A DNA stretch of 51,993 bases, from the NCBI GenBank assembly GCA_937871295.1, contig CALMRE010000196.1, positions 1 through 51,993 on the forward strand, in the 5' to 3' direction. This document shows, in pieces, positions 105 to 50,375 of this stretch. Position 1 is the stretch's first letter; every line of letters begins with the position of its first letter. A program made the translations under genes and the position numbers. The notes under the pieces are model-generated. The model was not told the DNA's origin. It did no database searches and was given only the letters and a program-made list of their open reading frames with translations. The DNA is from an uncultured bacterium. Lineage in GTDB: Bacteria > UBP6 > UBA1177 > JAKLFG01.

Positions 105-138
105 CAGCATACCTTTTAACGGGGACATAGATTGTCCC
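105..138 (-). promoter_or_regulatory. Palindromic promoter, site 0: GGGACAATCTATGTCCC-N10-TATGCT
   Basis: 17-bp palindrome GGGACA-N5-TGTCCC at 122-138 with TATGCT at 105-110 on the minus strand; same geometry as three sites in the 43.7-52 kb island. Confidence 0.6.
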
Positions 139-43674: not shown

Positions 43675-43704
43675 ATAAGAAAAACAGGAATGTCGAGCAT
43701 TCCT
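43675..43704 (-). terminator. Rho-independent terminator of the minus-strand nuclease gene
   Basis: Minus strand AGGAATG-CTCGA-CATTCCT followed by GTTTTTCTT. Confidence 0.65.
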
Positions 43705-44738
43705 TAGAGTTTGTTTAGTTCCGCTTCTATCAGTTTGTAGGTAGTCCTCATCTCCTCCGCCTGCGCGAACGCGAGGAGGTCCTTTCGTGACAAGGTGCCG
43801 CTCTCAAGGAACTGCGCGAGGTACTTGGATGTGAACTCCACCATCAGGAGGCCCTTCTCCATCTTTTTGAGGATCTCGCGGTTGTTCTCGATGTTGGTCT
43901 CGACCAGAGTCCTGATCGAAAGGAAGTCTTTCATCTCGGTCACGAGACGGTTGACCAGCGCCGCCAGAACATCCCGGTCCAGATCGACCGGCTTTGCATT
44001 AAGCACGATGTCTCGCGCCAGCAGATAGGCGATGGCAAGGTTGTCGAAGTCGTTCTTCTGGCTGTCGACCAGCACTACAAAACCGGCTTCAGGGAGAAAG
44101 AGTACCCCGTCGCAGTTCTTCTGGATACCTGCGCTTGCCGTTCCTTTGTCGAATACGATAAGGGGTATGTCGGCTCCTCGATTAACCTGAGCCTCCAGCA
44201 GTTGGCTCCATGCGGTGTCCTTGCGGTTCTTCGAGATGTCGGCCGAGGTGATATCCCCCAGATCGACCGACTTGTCGAATTTGCACTCGATGGCGATCCG
44301 CTTGCCGCCACCCTCGGCGATATCACAGAGGATGTCGCCGGTCTTGTTGCGCGGCAGTTCGCCCGTCTTGTCCCCGGTCAGCGTGACCGCGTCGCTGATC
44401 CCTTTCTTTTTCAAGAACTCGGTGAGGTAGTCATATATCTCCCGTTCACCGATCTTTCCCTTTCCCGCTGATCGGTCGTAGGTGACCTTCTTCATGTCGA
44501 AAAGGATCTTCAGATATTCCAGTTCCGTGCCGAGTTCGTTCTTGGTCTTGGCGAGGAAGGCGCCTATACGCTCCTCCATCAGGGCGAGAACCCCTATATA
44601 GAGCGCCTTGAAGAGCCGCTCTTCGCGGTCCTCTTCGGGAACCTTGTCGAAGTAATTGAAGATGATGTCGTTCTGGATGGCATACGAAGTGATCTCCAGT
44701 TGCTTGAGCTTTTGGTTCAAGCTGATTGCTTTGGTCAT
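43704..44738 (-). CDS. PD-(D/E)XK-type nuclease-like protein, island nuclease 1
   Basis: GEREIYDYLTEFLKKKGI...KTGDILCDIAEGGGKRIAIECKFDKS (D...ExK); RBS GAGGAGAGGT before ATG at 44738. Confidence 0.65.
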   Translation of the reverse strand: MTKAISLNQKLKQLEITSYAIQNDIIFNYFDKVPEEDREERLFKALYIGVLALMEERIGAFLAKTKNELGTELEYLKILFDMKKVTYDRSAGKGKIGEREIYDYLTEFLKKKGISDAVTLTGDKTGELPRNKTGDILCDIAEGGGKRIAIECKFDKSVDLGDITSADISKNRKDTAWSQLLEAQVNRGADIPLIVFDKGTASAGIQKNCDGVLFLPEAGFVVLVDSQKNDFDNLAIAYLLARDIVLNAKPVDLDRDVLAALVNRLVTEMKDFLSIRTLVETNIENNREILKKMEKGLLMVEFTSKYLAQFLESGTLSRKDLLAFAQAEEMRTTYKLIEAELNKL

Positions 44739-44850
44739 AGACCTCTCCTCTCGTGGTTGCTGACGGATAATACCCTTATGAGAATGCATAATCCATTTTT
44801 TCCGGTGTTGAGCCTCTCCTGCGGCACGAAATTCATTTTAACCGGCCAAA

Positions 44851-44883
44851 GGGACGCGGTGTGTCCCGGTTGAAGAGTAAAAT
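44851..44883 (+). promoter_or_regulatory. Palindromic promoter, site 1: GGGACGCGGTGTGTCCC-N10-TAAAAT
   Basis: 17-bp GGGAC-N7-GTCCC at 44851-44867; TAAAAT at 44878-44883; no recognisable -35; 43 nt from palindrome to ATG of ORF A. Confidence 0.7.
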
Positions 44884-44910
44884 TGGACCAAGAGACGAAG
44901 GAGGCAAGGT

Positions 44911-45669
44911 ATGGGCATTCGGCAATTCAACGGTTTTCCCCGGCTGACATGGAGCGAAGAACGATTTCTTGGGTATATTCGAGATCTACTATACCGCAGT
45001 CCCATGACCATAAGGCCCAGAAGACCTCTCGGCGAACGCACGGCAAATGCCGGTCATTGCCTTGAGACCGGTTTCGGGCGAGAAATGCTCATCATCAAAA
45101 TCGATCCCATGAACTACCTACGGTTCAGATACACAGACGGGGTCCGCGCGCTGGCCTATCTGGCCGGATGCCCGTTTGCAATGGCTTCGGGGCTGTCGAG
45201 TCGTCTCCATTTCGAGGAAAAGGATACCCGTGATCTTTTGGCCGGGTATCTTGAAAGCATTGCAGGCAAGCCAGTCGACCGTTTAATGAGCGCCTCTCGC
45301 CGAGAGAGACTTCGGCTTCAGTGCGAACACAGACATCTGAACCCCGTGCCTTACGCGGTGATCGATGATGAGTGGCGATACCTGATGATATGCGCCGTCG
45401 CGTGCAACGGCTACGACCTTTCGTTGTCCGAAAGCAGGGCAGGGTGGTTCGTGGATATCGCGATACATGGGCGCGGACAGGGCGCGCTGAAAACGCTGAC
45501 AAGGGAATTGTCGACAGCGGGGAAATTCATCTTCAGAACCGAAGAGAATGCGCGTTTCTTCATGGCCGAGTTCGACCGTGTGGCGCAGGAGGTCAGGTCG
45601 CCAGTGCCCTTCGAAACGCCGGCCGAGCGGCAGCGTAGGGTGATAGCGGCGCTGATCGGAAAAAAGTGA
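44911..45669 (+). CDS. ORF A: uncharacterised protein, single copy of repeat unit shared with ORF B
   Basis: RBS GAAGGAGG; MGIRQFNGFPRLTWSEERFLGYIRDLL start matches ORF B MGMKMFRGLPKIKWEKDRIFRYIRGAL. Confidence 0.75.
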   Translation: MGIRQFNGFPRLTWSEERFLGYIRDLLYRSPMTIRPRRPLGERTANAGHCLETGFGREMLIIKIDPMNYLRFRYTDGVRALAYLAGCPFAMASGLSSRLHFEEKDTRDLLAGYLESIAGKPVDRLMSASRRERLRLQCEHRHLNPVPYAVIDDEWRYLMICAVACNGYDLSLSESRAGWFVDIAIHGRGQGALKTLTRELSTAGKFIFRTEENARFFMAEFDRVAQEVRSPVPFETPAERQRRVIAALIGKK

Positions 45670-45734
45670 CAAGAGCCATAGAGCAGTTGTAATATGTCGT
45701 CGGTACACGAACCTTCTTCTTGGGTGGAGAGAAC

Positions 45735-47159
45735 ATGGGTATGAAAATGTTCCGGGGTCTTCCAAAGATCAAATGGGAGAAAGACCGCATCTTCCGCTAT
45801 ATCAGGGGAGCCCTTGCCGAAGGGGAATTCCGGATCGTGGAACGGGAACCGGTCAATGAACCGTCCCTATTCCCCTTAGAGCTATCTTTCCCTGTCGTCG
45901 CCGCGCCGCAGGGGATAAGAGACCGACTGCCGAGGCTTGCCGCAGGCCATGTGAAAGAAGAAAGCAACGGCAGGCCGGCACCGGCACCTCGTCCGGGGTC
46001 GGCATCGTCCTATGACCATGTGCTGGAGGCTATCGAACTCTTGGCCGTGCTTCTAGGCATACCGTTCCGTTGTGAGTCGGCCGTTTCGCGGGTACTGTTG
46101 TTCGATGACAGGGAAGAACGGTCGAACGTCCTTTCCCTTCTAAATATACTGACCGAGCAGGAAGCGCCGGACAATTGGAGAGACCGTCCCCGCATCGAAC
46201 GCGAGATCGGAGGCGGAACGCCGGGGGAGTTGTCCCTTAGTGAGTATATCGATGTGCCATGCGGCGCCGACCCGTTCGCCACCGACGACGAGGAAGGCTC
46301 ATTAAAGGAAGGAAGCATCATCTACAGCCTCATCTACGGGACGGCCCATGATTCTCCGGCAGGCGTTCAGTCGATGGAGATACTCAATCGACGTGTGTTC
46401 AATTCGCCGAGACCGGATCTCGGCACGGCGGAGGAAAAAGACCTCTTCACCAAGGAGCTTCACCGGATACGGGAGAAGGTACTTGACGGGGCAAAAGAGC
46501 CCGACAGAAAGGCGGATATGGGACGGCTATTCGATCATTGCCGGGGCCGAGCCCTGCCAAGCGGTGAATGGAACCCCGCCGCAGCGCTTGCACGGCTACG
46601 CGACTTTTTGAAGGGCAGCGGCATATCGTTGACCGATATGACGAATTCGTATGAGTATGAGGGACCCGGAGAAAAGCCCTTTATTTACAAGATGCAGATG
46701 CGGAACAAGGATACCATCAGCGCGATTTATGATCTTTTCCGGCTCCTATCGGTTCTTGAGAAAGTCCCCTGCAAAGAGGGGATGCCGGTCGGCGACAAAC
46801 TGATCATCTACGACAAGGAGGGACGGTTCTTTAAGGAAATGCTTACCCTCGCGGAGAACACGAAAGAACGGGCGCAACGGGAAGTGACGCCGCTCAGCGA
46901 GGAGGAAAGCGACCGGGTGCTTATCTTGAGCGCGTTCTCATGTCCTGTCCGTATCGAAGAGAAGGAGCTCGGTCCGGGTATCGAGTTGCAGTTCATTCAG
47001 GAGGGGGCGTCGCCGTTACAGAGCGAGAGCATGGGACGGCTGTTGTGGCGCTTCTTCTACGATGGCAGGGCTATGTTCCCAGATAAAGATACCGCAAGAG
47101 AGTTCCGCAAGAGACTGGAAGTTGCGATAACAGGTCAGTTCGCCCGCATGATCCAGTAA
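45735..47159 (+). CDS. ORF B: uncharacterised protein, tandem duplication of the ORF A-type unit
   Basis: RBS GGAGAG; same strand 65 bp after ORF A; LPKIKW...YIRGAL and internal LPSGEW...LRDFL unit starts. Confidence 0.75.
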   Translation: MGMKMFRGLPKIKWEKDRIFRYIRGALAEGEFRIVEREPVNEPSLFPLELSFPVVAAPQGIRDRLPRLAAGHVKEESNGRPAPAPRPGSASSYDHVLEAIELLAVLLGIPFRCESAVSRVLLFDDREERSNVLSLLNILTEQEAPDNWRDRPRIEREIGGGTPGELSLSEYIDVPCGADPFATDDEEGSLKEGSIIYSLIYGTAHDSPAGVQSMEILNRRVFNSPRPDLGTAEEKDLFTKELHRIREKVLDGAKEPDRKADMGRLFDHCRGRALPSGEWNPAAALARLRDFLKGSGISLTDMTNSYEYEGPGEKPFIYKMQMRNKDTISAIYDLFRLLSVLEKVPCKEGMPVGDKLIIYDKEGRFFKEMLTLAENTKERAQREVTPLSEEESDRVLILSAFSCPVRIEEKELGPGIELQFIQEGASPLQSESMGRLLWRFFYDGRAMFPDKDTAREFRKRLEVAITGQFARMIQ

Positions 47160-47806
47160 AGGACGCTAGTCTTGACACCAAAGGCCGACCCGGCCTCAAG
47201 TTCGTATTTATCATTCACGATAATATCTTCTAGGCCGTCCGATATATTTTTCTGCACCTTTTTCTTCAATAGCTCGACATTCCCTTGGCGTTCGATTTCT
47301 TTATTGATGTTCTCCCAGTACTTTATGGTCTTTTCCTCTCTGCGATATTCTTCAGGAATCTCGCATTGAGGATGAGTGGCAAAAAGAACAACGTAAAGAG
47401 AAGACGCTGCTTTCGTTTCACCGTTCACATTAATCAATTTCTTTTTATCGTTTTTTATCCTTTCCAAGTATTTTTGCAAGCCTCCAAAAGCATCGAACGA
47501 GTACATCGCTTTTATTTCTACGAGAGCTATCGGTTGTTGTTTCCTATTGAGAATCGCCATATCAATCCGGGGCCTCTTCTTGCCTGGGAGTGTTTTTATC
47601 TGAGGTTCCCACTCCCTCGCAACGATATAGTCAAGGGGGAAGAGTCTCTCGTAAAGAGAAAAAGCCCAACGGTCCCTAAGGGGGAGTTCGATTTTACTGG
47701 TTAATGCCAAATAAGCCAGTTCGTCTTTTTTGAAAGACCCCGCTAAGGAAGAAAGGGATTTTTTCAGAGCCTCTTCGATCATTTTCTTTTCATTTTCAGC
47801 GTTCAT
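47135..47806 (-). CDS. PD-(D/E)XK-type nuclease-like protein, island nuclease 2
   Basis: RPRIDMAILNRKQQPIALVEIKAMYSFD (D...ExK); RBS AGGAGG; 3' end overlaps ORF B by 25 bp. Confidence 0.65.
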   Translation of the reverse strand: MNAENEKKMIEEALKKSLSSLAGSFKKDELAYLALTSKIELPLRDRWAFSLYERLFPLDYIVAREWEPQIKTLPGKKRPRIDMAILNRKQQPIALVEIKAMYSFDAFGGLQKYLERIKNDKKKLINVNGETKAASSLYVVLFATHPQCEIPEEYRREEKTIKYWENINKEIERQGNVELLKKKVQKNISDGLEDIIVNDKYELEAGSAFGVKTSVLYWIMRAN

Positions 47807-47849
47807 GGCAAATGCCTCCTGTAATTTTTATCTGATCACGGAACAGTTC

Positions 47850-47878
47850 AGTATACTTTCGTCAGTTGTCTGACACAA
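47850..47878 (-). promoter_or_regulatory. Promoter of nuclease 2, TTGTGT-N17-TATACT, with inverted repeat GTCAG-ACAA-CTGAC
   Basis: Inverted repeat at 47861-47874 lies in the spacer and overlaps the -35. Confidence 0.55.
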
Positions 47879-47923
47879 GAAAATTCTGACAAGCGCGCCG
47901 AAGGCGCTTTTCCTTTATGGCTA

Positions 47924-48640
47924 TCAAGGTAAAAGCATTGGTATCGGTCCACTGTTCCCACATACCACTCCATTTCTTATCTCTTGTAAATGCCACCAAG
48001 GTCCTTTCGTATCGGGCCAATGGGCAAGGGCGGCGTCATACTGCTGAATCTGAAAGCCGGCGGCCACCCGACCGGCTCCTTGTGGATAAAGCAGGATGTA
48101 GGGAACTCCTCCCCACGGGGCGATGAGGGAACCGTCCTCGTAATCGGTCAGCATGACCGAGAGAACCTCTTCGAGCGACACCTCAGGCCACGGGATATTT
48201 TTCTTTCCGTGCGCGGTCAGACACCTCAGGTTGTCCTGTGAATGGCTTTCGATGTTCAGTAGAGTAATGTGCTGTTCGCTCAGCGCCTTCTCGAAGGCAT
48301 AGAGTTCGTCGTTGATCGATTCCTGCGCCGAGCGCCAGTTATGGAAGAAATCGGAAAGGATGAGGGTGTTGTAGCCCTCGGCGGCGATACGAGCCACCTG
48401 CACAGGGGCATCAGGCCATGACCATGAACCCACCGGTTCAAAGTGATCGTAACCTTCATAGGGCTCCCGGGCAAGGAGAAGCGGGACGACCGTTCTTTCC
48501 CCGGCAGAACTCAACAAAGGTAATATCCGCAGGGTAAAGGCCGCCGCCTCGGCCTCGGTTACCCCTGATATTCTCATGCGGAAACTCGTGGGGAACAACC
48601 GTTTCTCTTTTTCGGGGCAAGGAAATAATGTCAATTGCAT
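47924..48640 (-). CDS. Uncharacterised protein encoded directly downstream of the P-loop ATPase
   Basis: 238-aa ORF, start 10 bp after the ATPase stop; no recognised domain. Confidence 0.6.
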   Translation of the reverse strand: MQLTLFPCPEKEKRLFPTSFRMRISGVTEAEAAAFTLRILPLLSSAGERTVVPLLLAREPYEGYDHFEPVGSWSWPDAPVQVARIAAEGYNTLILSDFFHNWRSAQESINDELYAFEKALSEQHITLLNIESHSQDNLRCLTAHGKKNIPWPEVSLEEVLSVMLTDYEDGSLIAPWGGVPYILLYPQGAGRVAAGFQIQQYDAALAHWPDTKGPWWHLQEIRNGVVCGNSGPIPMLLP

Positions 48641-48650
48641 GGTCGTTCTC

Positions 48651-49244
48651 CTATATGTTGTCGAGCGAATAAGTCAGTTTGTTCCGGGTCTGGCCAACAT
48701 GACCGAAGATGGTCACTTTCCGTTCCTCCCTTTCCTTATGGAGAAGCACTATCGCGGCCGCCTCGCGGTGGATAAAGGGAATGGTCAGCTTGTGGTGACG
48801 AGGAGGGTCCTGTTCTTCTCCGTGGCGATGAGCAACAAGAAGCATCTTTATCTCGCGCTCGAAAGCGAACAGTTTGAGCTTCAGGAATGTGTGCTTGAGG
48901 TCGAAGTAAGCGCCGTAGCGGTGTCCGTGATCAATGTCTTCCAGTCGGTCGATGATGAGTACATTCAATCGGGCACCCTTCTTTTGCTCGTATTCTTCAC
49001 ACAGGAGAGGAATGTCTTCAAAAGGGATGTGAGGCCTGTGGCGGCACCAGAGGTCGGGGCAATTCCCGGTCGGAGGCTCCTTACCGGCCGAAAGGTAGAG
49101 TACGCCGGCCCCTTTGCGACGCCATGCGAATGCCATTTCCCGGGCGAGGGTCGTCCGCCCGCTTCGGGGCGTGCCGGCAAGGATCGACACCATGAAGGAG
49201 GGGATGAAGCGGATGATCTTTTCTGCCTTTTTGTCGAGCGTCAT
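48651..49244 (-). CDS. P-loop ATPase of RecA/DnaB-helicase-C-like fold
   Basis: Walker A AGTPRSGRTTLA, Walker B NVLIIDRLEDI, DnaB-like IHREAAAIVLLHKEREERKVTIFGHVGQTRNKLTYSLD; RBS GGAGGT before ATG at 49244. Confidence 0.65.
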   Translation of the reverse strand: MTLDKKAEKIIRFIPSFMVSILAGTPRSGRTTLAREMAFAWRRKGAGVLYLSAGKEPPTGNCPDLWCRHRPHIPFEDIPLLCEEYEQKKGARLNVLIIDRLEDIDHGHRYGAYFDLKHTFLKLKLFAFEREIKMLLVAHRHGEEQDPPRHHKLTIPFIHREAAAIVLLHKEREERKVTIFGHVGQTRNKLTYSLDNI

Positions 49245-49273
49245 GCGACCTCCGTGCAATACAGATAAAGACA

Positions 49274-49305
49274 TTTTCTCTACCTACCGGGACGCCCTAT
49301 GTCCC
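49274..49305 (-). promoter_or_regulatory. Palindromic promoter, site 2: GGGACATAGGGCGTCCC-N10-GAAAAT (minus strand)
   Basis: Palindrome 49289-49305; GAAAAT 49273/49274-49279 at the same offset as site 1; 44 nt to ATPase ATG. Confidence 0.6.
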
Positions 49306-49318
49306 GCCCGGAAGAATT

Positions 49319-49347
49319 TTGCATTTTGGGGTGTTTCCTGCGATACT
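49319..49347 (+). promoter_or_regulatory. Sigma70-type promoter of WYL regulator: TTGCAT-N17-GATACT
   Basis: Between palindrome site 2 and ATG 49373. Confidence 0.5.
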
Positions 49348-49372
49348 CAGACACCTTAACGGGAGGAACATC

Positions 49373-50320
49373 ATGGCCAACACGCATCGTATCCTTCACA
49401 TCCATCGTGAGATCCGCCGGAAAGGGTGGTGTTCGGTCCGCGAGGTGGCCGAGGAGATGGAGGTCAGCGACCGGCAGGTCAAGCGCGACATCGAGTACAT
49501 GCGGCTTTACCTTGAGGCGCCGATCGTTTACTCGCGGGAGAAAGGCGGCTACTATTATAAGAAACCGTGGGACATCTTCGACTACGCCGACGAGAAGATG
49601 CTCTTGTTCTATGTCTTCGCGGAGCGCATCGCCAACAACCTGTCGCTCATGCCGATAGTGTCGCGTGAACTGCTTGAGGATATCGAGGAGCAACTCCTCA
49701 CCGAGTACCAGCCGCTGCTCGGCAGGATAACCTATGAGTTATCCGACCATGAGCGGGTCAACGAGAAACTGCTGCGCGCCGTCCTTTCGGCGATGAGGAC
49801 CTACACCGCTCTCGCGGTGAAATATTGTAATGCGGCGGGAGAATGTTCGGAGCGCATCATCGAACCGTGGCATCTCATCAACTATTCGGGAAAATGGTAT
49901 CTTCTCGCGTGGTGCCGGGAGGCGAAGGAGATACGCACCTTTATGCTGTCACGTATGACCGATCTGAAGAACACCGAAGAGCCGTTCAAGAAAAAGATAG
50001 ACGAGGACCTGCTGGAGAAGTACCTGCACAAGGGCTACGGCATTTTCAAGTTGCCCGAGGCGCAGGAGGTGACGATACGGTTCCACGGGCCCATCATCCC
50101 GTTGGTCAAGAACCGCGTCTGGCATCCGGGGCAACGATTCGTCGAGACGACCCACAAAGGAAAGCCGTGTCTCGAACTAACATTACCGGTCAGCGGTTTC
50201 ACCGAGATAACCTACCATGTACTCGGCTTTACTCCCTATGCCGAAGCGGTCGCCCCCAAGGAGTTCCGCGATCAGTGGCTCAAACGACTGAAGGAATCGA
50301 TAAAACTGTTCTCGAAATAA
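49373..50320 (+). CDS. HTH-WYL transcriptional regulator
   Basis: N-terminal HTH CSVREVAEEMEVSDRQVKRDIEYMR; WYL domain IEPWHLINYSGKWYLLAWCREAKEIRTFMLSRM; RBS GGGAGGA. Confidence 0.92.
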   Translation: MANTHRILHIHREIRRKGWCSVREVAEEMEVSDRQVKRDIEYMRLYLEAPIVYSREKGGYYYKKPWDIFDYADEKMLLFYVFAERIANNLSLMPIVSRELLEDIEEQLLTEYQPLLGRITYELSDHERVNEKLLRAVLSAMRTYTALAVKYCNAAGECSERIIEPWHLINYSGKWYLLAWCREAKEIRTFMLSRMTDLKNTEEPFKKKIDEDLLEKYLHKGYGIFKLPEAQEVTIRFHGPIIPLVKNRVWHPGQRFVETTHKGKPCLELTLPVSGFTEITYHVLGFTPYAEAVAPKEFRDQWLKRLKESIKLFSK

Positions 50321-50341
50321 CGTCCTTTATTTCTTTCTGGT

Positions 50342-50375
50342 GGGACAGTCCATGTCCCGCATGTTGCGGTATGCT
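50342..50375 (+). promoter_or_regulatory. Palindromic promoter, site 3: GGGACAGTCCATGTCCC-N11-TATGCT
   Basis: Palindrome 50342-50358, TATGCT 50370-50375; 46 nt from palindrome to ATG 50405. Confidence 0.7.

Follow-up and report, generated by a model that had tools for sequence, protein, structure and literature searches.

A palindromic operator in the place of the -35 box, probably read by a neighbouring WYL protein of the DriD type, before defence genes of an uncultured bacterium

The present analysis concerns a recurrent palindrome, GGGAC-N7-GTCCC, in the contig CALMRE010000196.1 of an uncultured bacterium (51,993 nucleotides (nt); this whole stretch of DNA is referred to here as the window), and the gene of a WYL-domain protein that lies beside it. 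Comparison of related genomes makes it quite likely that the adjacent WYL regulator, which would be an activator of the DriD type that replaces the usual contacts with the -35 box, uses this palindrome as its operator. An initial annotation of the window had proposed that the palindrome serves a dedicated regulon, with the WYL protein as a candidate reader, and that it is used either by an activator or by a repressor. The first part of this proposal is supported by the position of the palindrome, by its conservation and by the covariation of its half-site word with the WYL protein, and, of the two options, the comparative evidence favours the activator. The sequences described below show directly the operator with its fixed geometry, the conservation of this site, the genes that it precedes as targets, and its covariation with the WYL regulators.

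Operator Palindromes and Promoter Geometry

The operator was searched for as the exact sequence GGGAC-N7-GTCCC, which occurs four times in the window (starting at 122, 44851, 49289, and 50342), against 0.05 copies expected from dinucleotide shuffles, and 15 times in the window's own genome, against two for the reversed control. Three of the copies in the window had been described in the initial annotation as promoters, with 43, 44, and 46 nt from the palindrome to the start codon, and both their positions and these distances proved correct. The promoter layout stands with regard to the palindromes, while site 2 has only a weak -10 (GAAAAT), and a fourth site, at 122-138, and a second -10, at site 1, have to be added. 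As a -10 is found at 10 nt on both sides of site 1 (44851), the divergent PD-(D/E)XK gene can be served by this site as well. The target gene of site 122-138 lies beyond the left end of the contig.

When the pattern was extended to GGGAC-N7-GTCCC followed by 9–12 nt and TANNNT, 14 matches were obtained in five genomes of the window's family, against none for the reversed controls, and the spacing is 10 or 11 nt in all 14, with none at 9 or 12 nt. An unbiased offset test covered every distinct exact palindrome of these five genomes (n = 36), chosen regardless of the presence of a -10, of which 19 are intergenic and 17 fall inside coding calls. Near the intergenic palindromes, strong -10s are found at offset 10 in seven cases and at offset 11 in eight, with no more than two at any other offset between 3 and 29, and a -10 at 10 or 11 nt accompanies just one of the 17 palindromes in coding calls. 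This last copy is located in the genome G002, upstream of a homologue of the PD-(D/E)XK gene, and the coding call that runs over it appears, by inspection, to be spurious, i.e., probably miscalled. The palindromes are thus not randomly distributed, and the mid-gene copies lack the promoter layout, with the exception of this doubtful call.

The palindrome spans about -40 to -23, with its centre at -31/-32, so that its left half-site is located where a -35 would begin. The lack of a recognisable -35 that had been noted for the window holds over 41 such promoters, in which the best -35 match at 16–18 nt has a mean of 1.9 of 6 positions, against 2.4 for random sequence.

Conservation in the Family of the Window

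In G002, which belongs to the same genus, the palindrome is kept between the WYL and AAA+ genes, and the remaining genes of the island differ. A second WYL/AAA+ pair on contig C12, in which the WYL protein is 61% identical, has the palindrome between its two divergent genes, as does a second pair in G004, also with divergent genes, while the second pair of G002 has a degenerate site (GTGAC..GTCCC + 11 + TAGAGT). The operator is found at WYL/AAA+ pairs in five loci of three species (one site degenerate), and a palindrome promoter precedes the addAB operon in three species. The promoters of this family have only the palindrome, the spacing, and the -10 in common, a pattern that speaks for constraint and against recent copying. 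The initial annotation had regarded random occurrence throughout the genome, including mid-gene, or a lack of conservation upstream of homologues, as findings that would speak against a dedicated operator, and neither was observed, given that related genomes keep the operator in front of the orthologous genes, namely addAB and the AAA+ genes that are linked to WYL.

The WYL Regulator and Its Sister-Family Paralogues

In the WYL protein of the window, the WYL and WCX domains score above the Pfam cut-off, and the HTH_11/DeoR-like helix-turn-helix (HTH) is weak; in its paralogue, this HTH scores above the cut-off. The AlphaFold2 model of the protein has winged HTH (wHTH), WYL, and WCX domains, with PafBC and DriD as the top Foldseek matches, and DriD and PafBC are also among the best matches in a sequence comparison with the PDB. 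The window's genome, which is 99% complete, has only two WYL genes, each adjoining a GGGAC site. Both have canonical promoters and, as far as the sequence tells, neither lies behind its own operator; the promoter of the second gene, TTGACA-17-GATACT, is conserved in three species. In the named genome collection, the only two relatives of the window's protein are a protein from a G002 contig and a distant actinobacterial protein (24% identity).

The sister-family WYL genes adjoin palindromes in which the geometry is the same (5-N7-5, 10 nt, -10) and the half-sites are TGGGC, ACGAC, or CAGGC. The genome scan for TGGGC returned 33 rows, with every distinct site at 10 nt, and the genomes that have TGGGC promoters are exactly the ten that have a group A WYL gene. 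Similarly, ACGAC tracks the group B WYL genes and CAGGC those of group C, with few exceptions (including contig ends), such as an ACGAC site in G015, where no group B gene was detected; the ACGAC and CAGGC scans also gave some control matches, so that a small number of rows in these two scans are background. The ACGAC half-site occurs in groups B and D. The WYL tree clusters by operator word, and each word is accompanied by its own recognition helix, with HIDT[VI]K corresponding to TGGGC (or to TGGRC, in a separate lineage), HIDTVL to ACGAC, HIDTVM to CAGGC, RQVQ to RCGAC, and RxVK to GGGAC. Several WYL paralogues with different half-sites co-occur in one sister-family genome.

A promoter block of about 60 base pairs (bp) is duplicated before unrelated genes in the sister family. 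At L083 and L203 (G023 and G026; ACGAC), for example, three to four near-identical blocks of this length, a few kb apart, precede unrelated genes downstream of the group B WYL gene, resembling serial promoter cassettes.

Target Genes and Other Features of the Window

The targets in the family of the window include AAA+ genes, PD-(D/E)XK genes, AddAB, a type IIG restriction gene, Fic, and ORF6N, and, at L227 (G000:C223), a DrmD-like SNF2 helicase with type III methyltransferase and restriction genes behind it, downstream of a GGGAC site whose -10 is CATAAT. Those of the sister family are type I-C cas3-cas5-cas8c, HsdM with Schlafen-like and other genes, McrB-like, AbiE, and Schlafen AlbA_2 genes, dynamin-like and other GTPases, BRO, a cyclic-phosphate receiver, and lipoproteins, together with the group A and group C WYL genes. 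The assignment is less sure for some targets, which lie 100–300 nt downstream of the operator.

A recurring target of the TGGGC sites (L207:10215, L208:8033, L206:7045, and L212) is a conserved acidic protein of 127 amino acids (aa), MT[ES]SLFEGIAEAMEG..., which adjoins ThiS/ThiF-like genes, as seen by inspection. At L091 (G020:C65), on the minus strand and upstream of a group C WYL gene, a 1272-aa gene adjoins that looks, on inspection only, like Cas12a. At L100 and L026 (G003 and G002), the palindrome is followed by DUF488 genes, with a good -10 in one of the two cases only.

The features of the window are presented in Table 1. Neither open reading frame (ORF) A nor ORF B has a match in Pfam, PADLOC, or NCBIfam, and a plasmid comparison gave no match for ORF B. 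The homologue of the PD-(D/E)XK-like gene in G002 is 73% identical, with the operator likewise upstream, and a 36% identical homologue of the P-loop ATPase is located in the same genome, behind the second AAA+ gene. The best match of the window's AAA+ gene in the defence databases is the AAA domain of IetA, at 65 bits; given the cut-off of 510 for the NCBIfam family IteA/IetA, and as inspection of the paralogous AAA+ genes revealed no protease behind them that could be a subtilase partner, its assignment to IetA was rejected.

Table 1. Operators, promoter elements, and genes in the window, by position.
Feature	Position	Strand	Remarks
-10 TATGCT of site 122	111-106	-	10 nt from palindrome
Operator palindrome GGGACAATCTATGTCCC (fourth site)	122..138	-	Exact-motif scan
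Predicted PD-(D/E)XK-like nuclease gene	43704..44738	-	Weak PF24608 match, E 0.005
-10 TAAAAT facing the PD-(D/E)XK-like gene	44835..44840	-	10 nt from site 1 palindrome
Operator palindrome GGGACGCGGTGTGTCCC (site 1), bidirectional promoter	44851..44867	.	Exact-motif scan
-10 TAAAAT facing ORF A	44878..44883	+	10 nt from site 1 palindrome
ORF A, downstream of site 1 (predicted control)	44911..45669	+	No family match
ORF B, in operon with ORF A	45735..47159	+	Distant ORF A paralogue, 21% identity
P-loop ATPase gene, short, predicted target of site 2	48651..49244	-	No curated family
Weak -10 GAAAAT of site 2	49278-49273	-	Scored under the -10 cut-off in the palindrome-offset test
Operator palindrome GGGACATAGGGCGTCCC (site 2)	49289..49305	-	Exact-motif scan
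Canonical WYL-gene promoter TTGCAT-17-GATACT	49319..49347	+	Not of the palindrome type
WYL regulator gene, presumed operator-binding protein	49373..50320	+	wHTH + WYL (PF13280, 3e-18) + WCX (PF25583)
Operator palindrome GGGACAGTCCATGTCCC (site 3)	50342..50358	+	Exact-motif scan
-10 TATGCT of site 3	50370-50375	+	11 nt from palindrome
AAA+ ATPase gene, truncated by contig end	50405..51992	+	PF00004

Alternative Explanations

The strongest competitor, which is itself unlikely, is that the WYL protein is a repressor similar to BrxR or CapW, with the palindrome overlapping the promoter and a ligand releasing the protein. CapW is reportedly a WYL repressor of a defence system. The same role is performed by BrxR, another WYL regulator of a defence system (PMC9122601), and here the operator does overlap the promoter, and in groups A and C of the sister family it stands before the gene of the WYL protein. 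On the other hand, a repressor needs neither the fixed 10/11-nt phase nor the absence of a -35, which both hold over otherwise unrelated promoters, and the sites of BrxR, which lie downstream of its promoter, consist of 11-bp repeats that are 5 bp apart, whereas the geometry and one half-site class found here equal those of the activator DriD. Activation is favoured because of this match with DriD in geometry and word, the canonical promoters of the regulator genes, and the homology with DriD and PafBC.

It is far less probable that the palindrome is read by a different regulator, such as LexA or some unlinked factor, the WYL protein being a mere neighbour. LexA genes are found in the genomes, and G003, a metagenome-assembled genome that is 83% complete, carries GGGAC promoters with no WYL gene found in it. 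However, each WYL clade has its own word at a constant geometry, TGGGC promoters and group A WYL genes occur in exactly the same genomes, and the GGGAC palindrome was not found in the lexA loci that were fetched. Control by LexA within the SOS response was dropped for this last reason, LexA being separate, and the reader of the operator is very probably the neighbouring WYL protein. That the palindromes arose by chance, or are structural repeats, and have no regulatory role can hardly be credited, even though 17 of the 36 copies lie in coding calls, as in the background, given the excess in the window's own genome (15 against 2), the strict -10 spacing beside the intergenic copies alone, bar one doubtful gene call, and the conservation upstream of orthologues; REP-like repeats and terminators were dropped in view of this spacing and conservation.

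A number of points weigh against an operator of a DriD-type activator. A repressor could occupy the same site, the position of the group A and group C WYL genes behind the operator fits either negative or positive autoregulation, and the addAB promoters also hold a second possible promoter, TTGTAA-16-TACAAT, which is likewise conserved. The AlphaFold2 model of the WYL protein is weak between the domains, with a mean pLDDT (per-residue model confidence) of 63. In addition to the lack of a WYL gene in G003, an orphan CAGGC site is found in G016 without its WYL gene, and the recognition helices vary at several positions, with no single residue proven to set the word. The best reading of the sequences is that a DriD-type activator family was recruited to defence islands, and that its operator words have diversified along with the regulator.

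Proposed Mechanism and Implications

In the family of the window, the regulator would be made from ordinary -35/-10 promoters, and a WYL dimer would then read one 5-bp half-site with each of its two winged HTH domains. The half-sites would flank the place where sigma region 4 would contact the -35 box, and the dimer may anchor the RNA polymerase at promoters that have a -10, 10 or 11 nt past the palindrome, and no -35. Binding and activation are inferred, as is the signal: by analogy with DriD and PafBC, the WYL domain would bind single-stranded DNA (ssDNA) arising from damage or phage attack, and would gate the activation. The targets would be defence-type genes, in the island and elsewhere, together with the addAB recombination operon. 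In the sister families, the WYL paralogues have retained the geometry, while the half-site word has changed together with the recognition helix.

A broader scenario, which is tentative and yet deserves serious consideration, is that this uncultured phylum has an inducible immune regulon that operates via DriD-type activators, in which each WYL paralogue has a private, orthogonal promoter word, and defence genes (CRISPR type I-C, restriction, AbiE, Schlafen, and AAA+) have been captured behind copies of the promoter. If this were true, ssDNA from phage attack or damage would induce immunity and recombinational repair together. The defence WYL regulators studied so far mostly repress one local operon, and what is known of DriD concerns a small number of repair and checkpoint genes in Caulobacter, whereas the DriD-type activator geometry appears here to command many unlinked defence systems. 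The GGGAC, TGGGC, ACGAC, and CAGGC set of paralogues may represent a natural recognition code for a family of WYL regulators, and the induction of immunity by infection or DNA damage would be testable with small parts, i.e., the WYL protein, the promoter, and ssDNA.

Comparison with Known WYL Regulators

BrxR (of BREX) and CapW (of CBASS) resemble the window's protein in being WYL regulators of defence islands that bind inverted repeats, and differ in that they repress a local operon. The operator of this type is located downstream of a complete promoter or is steric to it, whereas the present one fills the -35 region of promoters that have no -35, and the BrxR repeats are not a fixed-phase site that replaces this box. 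The actinobacterial WYL activators PafBC and SiwR share the WYL/WCX fold and act at promoters without a -35, where the site of the activator immediately precedes the -10. Unlike the regulator proposed here, PafBC is a heterodimer that reads a -26 motif, and SiwR has a 19-bp palindrome over the -35 to -10 region of a single operon.

DriD is a WYL activator from Caulobacter that is activated by ssDNA. Its consensus site, ATACGAC-N7-GTCGTAT, overlaps the -35 at a constant distance from the -10, with -35 matches of 1–2 of 6 positions, and driD is not autoregulated, while a divergent operon is activated by DriD (PMC12340889). The regulator of the window is likewise a wHTH-WYL-WCX protein, associated with a 17-bp core of two 5-bp half-sites that are 7 bp apart, which lies over a poor -35 (mean 1.9/6) at a constant distance from the -10 (offsets 10/11). 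In the family of the window, the regulator gene is also outside its own operator, in contrast with groups A and C of the sister family, and there is a divergent target operon, with recombination and repair genes among the targets. On the other hand, the targets here are mainly defence systems, and the sister-family paralogues with different words coexist, some of them with the operator before their own gene. The DriD word, ACGAC, is that of the ACGAC class of the sister family, whereas the family of the window has GGGAC, and, because of this difference in the half-site, the regulator of the window is filed as a variant of the DriD type, rather than as DriD itself.

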